Assembly: GCA_014859225.1 (NCBI GenBank)
Contig: JACUUP010000091.1
Location: forward strand, 1-5,754
DNA from: Candidatus Aerophobota bacterium
GTDB lineage: Bacteria > Aerophobota > Aerophobia > Aerophobales > B3-G15
DNA length: 5,754 nt
Direction: 5' to 3'
The number at the start of each line of letters is the position of its first letter. Within the stretch, counting starts at the first letter, position 1. Both the position numbers and the translations under genes were made by a program. Below, piece by piece: positions 1 through 5,656 of this stretch. The notes beneath the pieces are model-generated. The model saw only the letters and a list, made by a program, of their open reading frames with translations. It was not told where the DNA came from and ran no database searches.

Positions 1-797
1 TCCTGTACGAAATTGTCGATCCATTGCCGGCACAAGCGATTCCCCATAGCTAAGTCATCATCCTCGAAAATGAAGATGCGCATACCACGCTCATCAAATA
101 GTTGCTCCATTTCTCGGATAACATTACCAGGAGAACGAGAACGTCGTTTTTGACCTGGCGATCCACTATAAAACTGGTGAATACTGCAAAAACTACAGTT
201 GTAATAACACCCTCTACTGGATAGAATGGAGCAGATTCCTAGTCCCCGGTGAGTCACGACTCGCTCGCTTCTAAGTGGATATGGCAAATTGTCAAGATTC
301 TCTATTAATGGACGGGGTGGAGTTACCTTAATTTTTCCATTACTTGCATAGGCAAGTCCCTTAATTTGTGCCCATGCATGCGGTTGGTCGAGATGGTGAA
401 ATAGCTCCAGTAAAGTTTCCTCACCCTCTCCACAGACCACCGAATCCAGTCCCGGAATTGACTGCAGCGTGCTCTCAAATTCGATGCTCGGGAAATGGCC
501 ACCCATAGTGAAATGGGCAGCAACAACATTTTGACGAAGGTAGGAAATTAAATCAGCAAACTCGTAGAGCATGCGTTGAAAAATTAAAGAAAATCCAACA
601 ATTTTGGGTTTATCTCTATGAATGGTTGCAAGAATGTCATTTTTCGGTGTTTTGTCACAAGCTAATATCTTTACTTTTATACCGTACTTAGTCAGAAACC
701 CAGCAATTGAGCGTAACCCAAGGTTTTCCCACTCTTCGTAGCCAATCAGTAGCACATCAAAACCTGTTTTTGTCGTGCCTTTCCCCTTTGTTTTCAC
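1..797 (-). CDS. B12-binding radical SAM protein (3' end outside window)
   Basis: 265 codons are visible from a GTG start and the frame is still open at the left edge. AAGAGG at 804-809 lies 6 nt before the GTG, and no ATG lies in frame just upstream. Residues 13-135 look like a cobalamin-binding domain: FDVLLIGYEEW at the start, GFSLIFQ near 68-74, GGHFPS at 99-104 and CGEGEETLLEL at 122-132. A linker with RPLIENLDNLPYP (162-174) leads to the radical SAM core, where CYYNCSFC (197-204) supplies the three cysteines for a 4Fe-4S cluster and FEDDD (244-248) is the next strand. Family knowledge: such enzymes reduce S-adenosylmethionine to a radical and often methylate unreactive carbons or rearrange small molecules, lipids or peptides. 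The substrate cannot be read here. The canonical DxHxxG cobalamin motif is not obvious in the N-terminal domain, so base-off B12 binding is not assured. It is the last visible gene of a likely operon with the 110-residue protein. Confidence 0.93.
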   Translation of the reverse strand, partial: MKTKGKGTTKTGFDVLLIGYEEWENLGLRSIAGFLTKYGIKVKILACDKTPKNDILATIHRDKPKIVGFSLIFQRMLYEFADLISYLRQNVVAAHFTMGGHFPSIEFESTLQSIPGLDSVVCGEGEETLLELFHHLDQPHAWAQIKGLAYASNGKIKVTPPRPLIENLDNLPYPLRSERVVTHRGLGICSILSSRGCYYNCSFCSIHQFYSGSPGQKRRSRSPGNVIREMEQLFDERGMRIFIFEDDDLAMGNRLCRQWIDNFVQ

Positions 798-880
798 GTT
801 TTTCCTCTTGGTATGATATGTGGCGTTTGGGGGCCCCCGAGCACAGAGGTTTTGAAGCCTTCACTGCTGGGAGGTCCCAT
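794..880 (-). CDS. Possible 28-residue peptide overlapping the radical SAM start
   Basis: An ATG frame of 28 codons begins MGPPSSEGFKTSVLGGP and ends IIPRGKT. Its TGA stop shares bases with the GTG start of the radical SAM gene (GTGA), a typical arrangement for translational coupling. It fills most of the gap between the 110-residue gene and the enzyme. No good ribosome binding site is visible before its ATG (ACGGTCAAA precedes it), which is the main argument against it. It contains a Gly-Gly-Pro and several prolines but no cysteine. If real it could be a peptide substrate or only a coupling leader; no family is recognised. Confidence 0.35.
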   Translation of the reverse strand: MGPPSSEGFKTSVLGGPQTPHIIPRGKT

Positions 881-910
881 TTTGACCGTCTATAGAGAGA
901 CGAAGCTGTC

Positions 911-1243
911 CTATTTGATCTTATACTCTTCTTTCAGTAGATTGCGTTCTAACTTAAGGAAGTCGATCTGTTTTTCCAGTTCCGTAATTGCTGCGTCAAT
1001 TTGACGAATTTTGAGTTGAGCCAATTTCGCCTTATCCAAGAGATACCATGGGGCAGGGTCAGCTACAGGACCGCGAATGCCCGCCCACTGTGGGAGCGAT
1101 TCGGTTACCGCACCTCGTGCCCATCCAGGGGATGGATCGGCTACTGGCCCTCTCAACCCGGCTGCGCTTATCGCACCGATGTCCAGTTTAACCCGGATAG
1201 CTTCCAAGGTTGAAGCTATATCTTTCAAGATTTTTTCATCCAT
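911..1243 (-). CDS. 110-residue protein with threefold RGxV...P.W repeat
   Basis: The ATG has an excellent ribosome site, AGGAGG at 1251-1256 with 7-nt spacing, and the frame ends in TAG. No family is recognised with certainty. Residues 1-20 are a likely amphipathic helix (MDEKILKDIASTLEAIRVKL). Residues 31-66 hold three related units: RGPVADPSPGW (31-41), RGAVTESLPQW (43-53) and RGPVADPAPW (57-66), sharing Arg-Gly, Val, an acid, Pro and Trp. Residues 70-110 form a long charged helix with coiled-coil character. There is no signal peptide, membrane segment or cysteine. It lies 113 nt upstream of the B12 radical SAM gene on the same strand and downstream of a GEMM-I riboswitch. A repeat centre between helices would suit a modified substrate, a scaffold or a partner of that enzyme. 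This role is inferred from context only. Confidence 0.85.
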   Translation of the reverse strand: MDEKILKDIASTLEAIRVKLDIGAISAAGLRGPVADPSPGWARGAVTESLPQWAGIRGPVADPAPWYLLDKAKLAQLKIRQIDAAITELEKQIDFLKLERNLLKEEYKIK

Positions 1244-1263: not shown

Positions 1264-1338
1264 TTACTGTTTAGCTGGTGTCTCTTCCTTGAAATATTTC
1301 ACCCGCCAGCCATAAAGATCCTTCCCTTTTTCTTGCAT
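1264..1338 (-). CDS. Possible 24-residue peptide upstream of the repeat protein
   Basis: A short ATG frame starts MQEKGKDLYGWRVKYF, ends ETPAKQ and stops at TAA, 20 nt before the next start; that gap holds the next gene's ribosome site. The composition is protein-like. No close ribosome site precedes it: the nearest strong one (1360-1370) is about 21 nt from the ATG. The same frame continues upstream through two TGA codons to an ATG at 1515, so this may be the tail of a decayed or recoded gene. Function unknown. Confidence 0.3.
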   Translation of the reverse strand: MQEKGKDLYGWRVKYFKEETPAKQ

Positions 1339-2779: not shown

Positions 2780-3142
2780 TTACTCAACCTTTACCGTGTC
2801 CTTTATTCTGCCAAAAGTTGTCGCACTTATCCCTGGCACTTTCATGACCTCTTCTATGGATTTGAAAGCACCATGTGCATCTCTATAATTTATTGTTCTC
2901 TCGGCTAAAATCTCACCTACACCAACGAGAGTGGTGAGCTCTTTTTTGAGAGCTGTATTTATATTTATTTTCTTTTTTCTTCCCAAGTTTTTTCTGTCCT
3001 GCCAGGCCCTCCTTAGTTTTGCTTTCCAGGCCGATGCATCCGTGATAATCCCACGCTGCATAACAGGATTTCCGTTTATCCAAACTGATGCGTCCCGATA
3101 TGTAAGCTTCATATCTTTTTTGAATTGCGCTTCTGTCTTCAT
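2780..3142 (-). CDS. ComEA-type helix-hairpin-helix protein, soluble form
   Basis: 120 residues from the ATG at 3142, chosen because AAGGTGG lies 5 nt upstream; a GTG three codons earlier is too close to that site. Residues 59-119 match the ComEA DNA-binding region: ININTALKKELTTL, hairpin GVGEILAERTINYR (74-87), then GAFKSIEEVMKVPGISATTFGRI (91-113). Family knowledge: two helix-hairpin-helix motifs contact DNA backbone without sequence preference; ComEA is the uptake receptor in natural transformation. Here the N-terminal 58 residues (KLTYRDASVWINGNPVMQRG, later RRAWQDRKNLGRKKK) contain no signal peptide or membrane anchor, so this is more likely a cytoplasmic DNA-associated protein than a true uptake receptor. 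The N-terminal domain is not recognised. No other competence gene is in the window. Confidence 0.88.
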   Translation of the reverse strand: MKTEAQFKKDMKLTYRDASVWINGNPVMQRGIITDASAWKAKLRRAWQDRKNLGRKKKININTALKKELTTLVGVGEILAERTINYRDAHGAFKSIEEVMKVPGISATTFGRIKDTVKVE

Positions 3143-3157
3143 GTTTACCACCTTTTT

Positions 3158-4424: not shown

Positions 4425-4481
4425 AACTAATAAGGCTTATATCACTTTTCCCAGGCTCTTCACTATTATTAAAAACTTCAA

Positions 4482-4504
4482 TGTCAAGACCAGACCCTCT
4501 TTTC
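4482..4504. repeat. Short dispersed repeat, TGTCAAGACC type (copy 1)
   Basis: This 23-bp sequence, TGTCAAGACCAGACCC then TCTTTTC, matches 5634-5656 at 22 of 23 positions. It abuts the stop codon of the PgeF gene. Confidence 0.7.
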
Positions 4505-4507
4505 TAT

Positions 4508-5323
4508 TTAGCTTCTTAAACTGGCAATCAATCCGAATCTACCTGTTTGCCCTTTATCTTTTCGGTAGGAATAAAAAAGTTCGGGAGAACAGGTGCTACA
4601 TATATTCGCTACTTCTATACACTCAGGTTGAACCTGCGCTGCTAAAAGATTGTACACATTCAGTTTCCACAAATTTAAATGAAAAATACCTCCTGGTTTA
4701 GCAATGAGAAAATTATTGCAGTTTCCGGGAAAACAAGCGGTCAATTTTTCCAGAACTACTTTTCCAATCTCATAGCAGCACGGACCAATGGATGGACTGA
4801 TTCCTACATGCAGCTTACGTGGATTGGTATGGAAATTTTGATTCATAGCTTTTACTGCTTTGCCTGCAATGCTCTCAAGGCTTCCTTGCCAGCCAGCGTG
4901 AGCAAGTGCTACTACGTGATGTTCAGGGTCAAAAAATAGTAACGCTGGACAGTCGGCAATCATAACCTGCAATGAAATACCTTGCATCTTTGTGATTAAA
5001 ACATCGGTTTCCGGGAAAATATTCCCCCGGGCAACAGAATTACCACGTTTACTTGTAGGTGTAACAATTTGAATGTGAGTGCCATGAACTTGCTCACCGG
5101 TCACAACTGAATTTGAATCTAAACCAAGCGCTGCGCATAGCAATCTTCGGTTTTCTAAAACGTTACCTGGTTCATCGCCAACGTTGAAACTGATGTTTAA
5201 TGATTTATAACTGCCGGTGCTTACCCCACCTAACTTTGTTGAAACAGCATGTGTTAAGCAATCAAGTTTGCCTAAATGAGGAAAGGTAAGATAAATAACT
5301 TTGTTTTTTTGATGAATTAGCAT
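4508..5323 (-). CDS. pgeF: Laccase-domain protein, PgeF/YfiH family
   Basis: A complete 271-residue protein of normal family length. Family motifs occur in order: GGVSTGSYKSLNISFNVGD (32-50) then NRRLL, TGEQVHG (75-81), ETDVLIT (105-111), ADCPALLFFDP (123-133), ALAHAGWQGS (139-148), GISPSIGPCCYEIG (174-187) and FYSYRKDKGQTGRFG (250-264). His80, Cys125 and His142 are the metal/active-site triad of this fold. Family knowledge: despite older names (polyphenol oxidase, laccase), YfiH/PgeF acts in the cytoplasm, hydrolysing misincorporated peptidoglycan precursors such as UDP-MurNAc-L-Ser, and relatives act on purine nucleosides. The ATG at 5323 is the first start after an in-frame TGA; the sequence before it (GAAAAAAACAA) is a poor ribosome site. 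It has no cell-wall gene beside it and appears to be a single gene among repeats and remnants. Confidence 0.95.
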   Translation of the reverse strand: MLIHQKNKVIYLTFPHLGKLDCLTHAVSTKLGGVSTGSYKSLNISFNVGDEPGNVLENRRLLCAALGLDSNSVVTGEQVHGTHIQIVTPTSKRGNSVARGNIFPETDVLITKMQGISLQVMIADCPALLFFDPEHHVVALAHAGWQGSLESIAGKAVKAMNQNFHTNPRKLHVGISPSIGPCCYEIGKVVLEKLTACFPGNCNNFLIAKPGGIFHLNLWKLNVYNLLAAQVQPECIEVANICSTCSPELFYSYRKDKGQTGRFGLIASLRS

Positions 5324-5563: not shown

Positions 5564-5656
5564 AGGGTCTTGACACATAATAAACACTCTACCATAAAAC
5601 ACTAACAGTTGCTTGCTTCCGGCAAATGTCAAATGTCAAGACCTGACCCTCTTTTC
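5564..5656. repeat. REP/MITE-like element with inverted TGTCAAGACC ends (copy 2)
   Basis: AGGGTCTTGACA at 5564-5575 faces TGTCAAGACC-TGACCCT at 5634-5650 (one half interrupted), giving an element of about 90 bp. The right end also has tandem ATGTCAA (5626-5639). The right arm equals the copy at 4482. The interior has no gene. Confidence 0.55.

Follow-up and report, generated by a model that had tools for sequence, protein, structure and literature searches.

The locus and its repeat protein

The window analysed here, a stretch of 5,754 nucleotides, belongs to a draft genome of 1.8 Mb, in which it is contig C219. On its reverse strand, an ORF with an ATG start and a strong Shine-Dalgarno sequence (AGGAGG) at positions 911 to 1243 encodes a 110-residue protein that we regard as a putative substrate or precursor. 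The gene of a B12-binding radical SAM enzyme begins 113 nt downstream, at a GTG at position 797 of the same strand, and its N-terminal half (3 to 797) leaves the window at base 3. The preliminary description of this DNA had placed the small protein directly upstream of a cobalamin-type radical SAM gene, and both the spacing and the B12-binding domain of the downstream product (Pfam PF02310, E 3e-20) bear this out. Immediately upstream of the repeat gene, at 1264-1338 (reverse strand), is a 24-aa ORF, MQEKGKDLYGWRVKYFKEETPAKQ, whose Shine-Dalgarno sequence is poorly placed.

The three repeats that had been read in the protein are real. RGPVADPSPGW (residues 31-41; 1121-1153, reverse strand), RGAVTESLPQW (residues 43-53; 1085-1117, reverse strand), a diverged copy with TES in place of ADP, and RGPVADPAPW (residues 57-66; 1046-1075, reverse strand) start 12 and 14 residues apart. 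The third is the counterpart of the DPVPW motif that occurs once in the Nitrospira proteins described below. No shuffled sequence scored as well: the best internal self-match was 59 against a shuffle maximum of 49 (0 of 1000 shuffles reached it), and the best repeat triple was 19 against a maximum of 15 (0 of 200).

An AlphaFold2 model (ma46308d17811) predicts an N-terminal helix over residues 2-29 (1157-1240, reverse strand; pLDDT about 76 over residues 1-20), a low-confidence stretch over residues 25-59 that contains repeats 1 and 2, and a C-terminal helix over residues 66-109 (917-1048, reverse strand; pLDDT 87-95 over residues 71-110) that begins at the Trp of unit 3. The view that helices frame the repeats therefore holds in the prediction, because repeat 3 caps the C-terminal helix. 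This helix is the segment most widely conserved among relatives of the protein, and we propose that it serves as a follower-like recognition segment, separate from the variable units. Scans of Pfam and NCBIfam returned no family match for the repeat protein or its homologues, PHROGs returned none for those of them that were scanned, and neither the motif nor the cassette turned up in the papers that we searched.

Some 420 nt before the repeat gene, and on its strand, is a c-di-GMP-I-GGC riboswitch aptamer of the GEMM-I type (1663-1739; Rfam RF03167, 63.8 bits, E 8.8e-14), with a promoter-like TTGACA-16-CACAAT immediately upstream of it (1799-1772); the repeat-protein gene is the first well-supported ORF downstream. 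The genome holds a second copy (G000:C234:4438-4516), the aptamer is common across the order to which the organism belongs, and none was found around the JdFR-85 cassette described below. Control of the cassette by this aptamer is only a lead, because the distance of about 420 nt exceeds that of several other copies whose next gene could be read.

Elsewhere in the window, a ComEA-like helix-hairpin-helix protein (2780-3151, reverse strand; PF12836, 4.7e-18) carries an additional N-terminal region. A 25-nt direct repeat, AATGTCAAGACCWGACCCTCTTTTC (96%), occurs at 4480-4504 and 5632-5656, and we take it to resemble the ends of REP or transposase-associated elements.

A subfamily of class B radical SAM enzymes

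The first 55 bases of the window overlap exactly with the end of another contig of the genome (G000:C34), and joining the two gives an enzyme ORF of 529 aa. A B12-binding Rossmann domain lies at the N-terminus of the product, followed by a Radical_SAM match (Pfam, 2.2e-5) with the [4Fe-4S] motif CxxxCxxC as CYYNCSFC (186-209, reverse strand), conserved in 16 of 16 subfamily members; the enzyme model also aligns with the cobalamin domain of methionine synthase (Z about 13). By this motif and domain the enzyme is a class B radical SAM protein with predicted cobalamin use; AprD4-like relatives are not known to use cobalamin.

In sequence scores, the enzyme stays under every NCBIfam cut-off and is, on that footing, a member of a previously uncatalogued subfamily. 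For TIGR03975 (cut-off 281.85) the window half scored 62.5 bits and the full-length enzyme of Nitrospirae bacterium JdFR-85 scored 74.7; the latter reached 132.5 bits for ApyD, its top score (cut-off 750), 125, 111 and 108 bits for BchE, HpnJ and HpnR (481, 578 and 650), and 62.5 bits for TIGR04014, the MgmA family (360). The model of the JdFR-85 enzyme (pLDDT 90) has a class-B fold. Its top structural match is MgmA (Z 25.1, rmsd 3.0, 367 residues, 18% identity), with OxsB (Z 25.1, rmsd 4.2, 483 residues), AprD4 (Z 24.4, rmsd 3.5, 412 residues), TsrM (Z 23.1, rmsd 3.3, 432 residues) and CysS (Z 23.0, rmsd 4.1, 415 residues) close by. MgmA and TsrM are methylases of peptides, proteins or amino acids, and OxsB, AprD4 and CysS act on small molecules. 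Because these nearest structures are almost tied, the fold does not discriminate between substrate classes; the modelled fold fits peptide and protein methylases and is also compatible with small-molecule substrates.

These comparisons bear on the chemistry that would follow if the repeat protein were the substrate of the enzyme. A radical reaction other than methylation (ApyD- or BchE-like cross-linking, epimerisation, cyclisation or oxidation) would agree with the two highest NCBIfam scores, 132 bits for ApyD and 125 for BchE, both far under cut-off, and with the structural proximity of OxsB and AprD4, which are not methylases and are as near in fold as MgmA. We nevertheless consider such chemistry unlikely, if well worth keeping in mind, given that the fold is non-discriminating and that the B12-dependent radical SAM enzymes so far characterised as acting on peptides or proteins are mostly methylases. 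Since most peptide-acting members of the class carry out C-methylation, we take it as the likeliest chemistry, and within a substrate and enzyme pair we rate it somewhat above another radical reaction.

A related cassette in Nitrospirae bacterium JdFR-85

We scanned 84,980 species genomes by a method whose reach is limited to close relatives, and the sole full-length relative of the 110-aa protein was found in JdFR-85 (L003 8001-8336). It is 67% identical and keeps three units (RGPVADPPPG, RGVIADPLLP and RGPVADPAPW). Its gene stands directly upstream, at a distance of 60 nt, of the gene for an enzyme of 520 aa with 70% identity to the window half. Identity between the two small proteins is 15/29 in the N-terminal helix, 10/12 in unit 1 (residues 30-41), 3/11 plus gaps in unit 2, 11/12 in unit 3 and 33/43 in the C-terminal helix. 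Differences between the repeat genes fall mainly at third codon positions (0.24, 0.11 and 0.61 per first, second and third position), a pattern that resembles that of the enzyme genes (0.27, 0.14 and 0.54) and indicates, at the level of codons, that purifying selection acts on the repeat gene.

The window also encodes a PgeF (Cu-oxidase_4) protein (4508-5323, reverse strand; TIGR00726, over cut-off). This protein shares only 32% identity with the PgeF of JdFR-85, which suggests, on the thin evidence of one gene, that the cassette has moved between lineages. Between the JdFR-85 precursor and enzyme genes is a perfect 15-bp hairpin (L003 8349-8382, z -5.9), possibly a partial terminator; we rejected it as a cassette-wide feature, with z at -1.1 in the window and no strong hairpin in the others.

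Searches with the 110-aa protein and with a profile of the window and JdFR-85 pair gave nothing credible in 97 other genomes on the window side or in a further 394 from the phylum of JdFR-85, and no relative of the repeat protein was found in viral contigs and plasmids. Four weak matches were discarded: a chance match in Streptomyces (L004) that covers just 22 residues of an ORF of 200 aa, itself unrelated; one with an internal stop (G022); one in G164; and one in G378, where the matching gene encodes a membrane protein of 486 aa that is likewise unrelated and the 16 kb read hold no copy of the enzyme. B12-binding radical SAM proteins on plasmids, at 24-32% identity, belong to other subfamilies, and the three whose surroundings were read have no DPxP repeat neighbour.

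Small proteins and enzymes across the subfamily

Of 395 genomes sampled from the phylum of JdFR-85, 12 encode the enzyme subfamily, at 36-40% identity outside JdFR-85; we term these genomes Nitrospira relatives. We read the directly upstream gene for 16 subfamily members. In nine it encodes a small protein of one plan, with 1, 3 or about 5 DPxP(W/F) units followed by a C-terminal helix. Two of the 16 are the three-unit proteins of the window and JdFR-85. Five are 77-aa proteins (..RVPINWDPVPWWFFERANLPKEALSQLALIQLENQRAI..) and one is a 68-aa protein (..KDPVPPWIRNFLDKTVLRELAIVQLEYQ..), all from Nitrospira relatives and all with one DPVP(P)W unit and a helix. One is a 171-aa protein (L024, in genome G298) in which VVDPAPW, VVDPGPF, IVDPGPF, VADPAPY and GDPPP precede a C-terminal helix-like segment; two further subfamily genomes (G784 and G799) belong to the genus of G298. 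The other seven, which form one clade, have an unrelated 331-aa protein (L027 491-1486; equivalents in L023, L025, L026, L028, L029 and L040).

Profiles of the window and JdFR-85 proteins and of the Nitrospira 77/68-aa proteins align over the DPxPW-helix segment (hhalign E 3.2e-5), and by this comparison the two groups are homologous across it. A Nitrospira profile built with JdFR-85 left out had the JdFR-85 repeat gene as its sole match in that genome (E 0.0017), and across the 395 genomes it gave no strong match away from the enzyme, the five strong matches being its own members. Whole-protein profile comparison of the five-unit protein gave no significant match; its tie to the group is its position, its repeated DPxP(W/F) motif and its helix layout. 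The preliminary description had considered that homologues might occur mostly without the radical SAM gene, or that the repeat might not be conserved. Both checks came out in favour of the link: every strong homologue in the 395 genomes adjoins the enzyme, and the motif is conserved at one copy (77/68 aa), three (window) or about five (L024).

In the enzyme tree the subfamily is monophyletic (support 99/99), and the type of upstream gene follows the tree without exception over the 16 members, requiring 4 changes, the minimum, a value reached in 0 of 200 shuffles. On this evidence the small protein and the enzyme evolved together. Being adjacent to the enzyme and co-evolved with it, the repeat protein is probably its substrate. 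The two genes might instead be independent neighbours, the enzyme making a lipid or a small molecule, as its HpnJ-, HpnR- and BchE-like scores would allow. We hold this to be very improbable, for the pairing is conserved in two unrelated lineages and several sub-clades, and the small proteins are homologous.

The suspected link between repeat protein and enzyme stands in its conserved pairing and motif; it fails to extend to the whole subfamily, since seven of the 16 enzymes have the 331-aa gene upstream instead. In profile comparison the 331-aa protein does not convincingly resemble the repeat protein, one DPSP apart, and for this reason we consider that its clade may have exchanged one substrate or partner for another. 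Of six genomes examined, two (L062, L070) carry a gene for a C39-peptidase type I exporter next to that of the 331-aa protein.

Substrate or partner

The pattern by which RiPP systems are recognised, a small gene-encoded peptide conserved beside a modifying-type enzyme, is present at 9 of 16 enzyme genes and in two lineages. Downstream of the five-unit protein and its enzyme, G298 encodes on the same strand a RiPP-maturation B12-binding radical SAM methyltransferase (TIGR03975, 716 bits, cut-off 282) and a PatA/PatG protease (724 bits, cut-off 421); a PatG was seen beside the cassette in this genome only. The role of this protease is doubtful because in G200, a genome of the Nitrospira type, PatG adjoins a small protein of its own on a different contig from the subfamily enzyme; by analogy, the G298 PatG may act on something other than the five-unit protein. 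Near PatG-type proteases we also saw small proteins starting MKIP/MKLP..G.NR (L082 7898-8266 and L046 14494-14814), the probable cognate precursors of those proteases. A search of the window's genome found no PatG, and the window, whose end falls mid-gene, contains no protease or exporter gene.

The main alternative is that the repeat protein is a scaffold or adaptor rather than a substrate, its helices and proline-rich linker binding the enzyme or recruiting to it a third protein or a lipid substrate, much like a small accessory subunit. The long, confidently predicted C-terminal helix is the most widely shared segment, the number of units falls as low as one, the window has no release protease or exporter, and one enzyme clade carries an unrelated upstream protein, all of which would suit such a partner; conservation of the DPxPW-helix segment would be expected equally if the protein merely docked. 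We judge this alternative improbable, because the units vary from 1 to 3 to 5 while the enzyme stays single, as is typical of multi-core substrates, and the five-unit form adjoins a recognised RiPP C-methyltransferase.

We therefore favour a pair of substrate and modifying enzyme, RiPP-like and variable in its number of cores, and put the probability of this reading, drawn from sequence, at roughly 0.6. The 110-aa protein would serve as a precursor of the RiPP type or else mature in place as a small protein. The B12-type radical SAM enzyme would bind its C-terminal helix, which has DPxPW at the start, and the RGPVADPxP(W) units that precede the helix would be offered in turn for radical modification. 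That step could be the C-methylation of an unactivated carbon in the Pro, Val, Asp or Trp/Phe of a unit. The common element of the profile-linked small proteins is one DPxPW and the helix, with the upstream units apparently duplications; one shared unit and helix with extra units upstream fit a follower at the C-terminus on which the enzyme would dock during modification of one or several units. In this model we infer the modification itself, the substrate role, the helix role, the modified residue and methylation as the reaction.

It is a tentative proposal, with rather less than an even chance, that these genes represent a new RiPP-like class in which one B12-dependent radical SAM enzyme modifies one to five internal (R)GPVxDPxPW units between two helices, guided by the C-terminal helix, in a two-gene cassette that moved between phyla and is possibly under the control of a cyclic-dinucleotide riboswitch here. 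If the units are modified, the cassette would amount to a small system of two genes whose replicate sites (1, 3 or 5 copies) are built in, and to a good model for site choice and iteration by B12 radical enzymes. It would also yield a defined modified-peptide product for Nitrospira-like bacteria and for an uncultured lineage.

Comparison with known systems

Cyanobactin precursors can have several cores. Systems of the PatA/PatG type share with ours the PatG-type protease downstream of the cassette in G298, whereas no PatG was found in the genome of the window. Members of TIGR03975 (rSAM_ocin_1) likewise combine B12-binding and radical SAM domains, and one of them lies in the same gene run as the five-unit protein; scores of 62-75 bits against a cut-off of 282 nevertheless set the window and JdFR enzymes apart as a separate subfamily. 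ApyD, the B12-binding radical SAM enzyme of aminopyruvatide, acts on a RiPP and gives the full-length JdFR-85 enzyme its best NCBIfam match, but the score is 132 bits against a cut-off of 750, and the partner genes of aminopyruvatide were not recognised beside the cassette.

The top structural match to the JdFR-85 enzyme model, the methyl-coenzyme M reductase glutamine C-methyltransferase MgmA, methylates a protein residue (PMC11796369). Its substrate, however, is a large archaeal enzyme, and identity is 18%. The nearest precedent is bottromycin, whose core precedes a C-terminal follower and is C-methylated at Pro, Val and Phe by three B12-dependent radical SAM enzymes (PMC11285071). The enzyme type (BotRMT1-3) is alike, and so would be the order of core and proposed follower. 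Bottromycin has a single N-terminal core and several tailoring enzymes, whereas in the cassette described here a single dedicated enzyme accompanies one to five units that lie internally, between helices.
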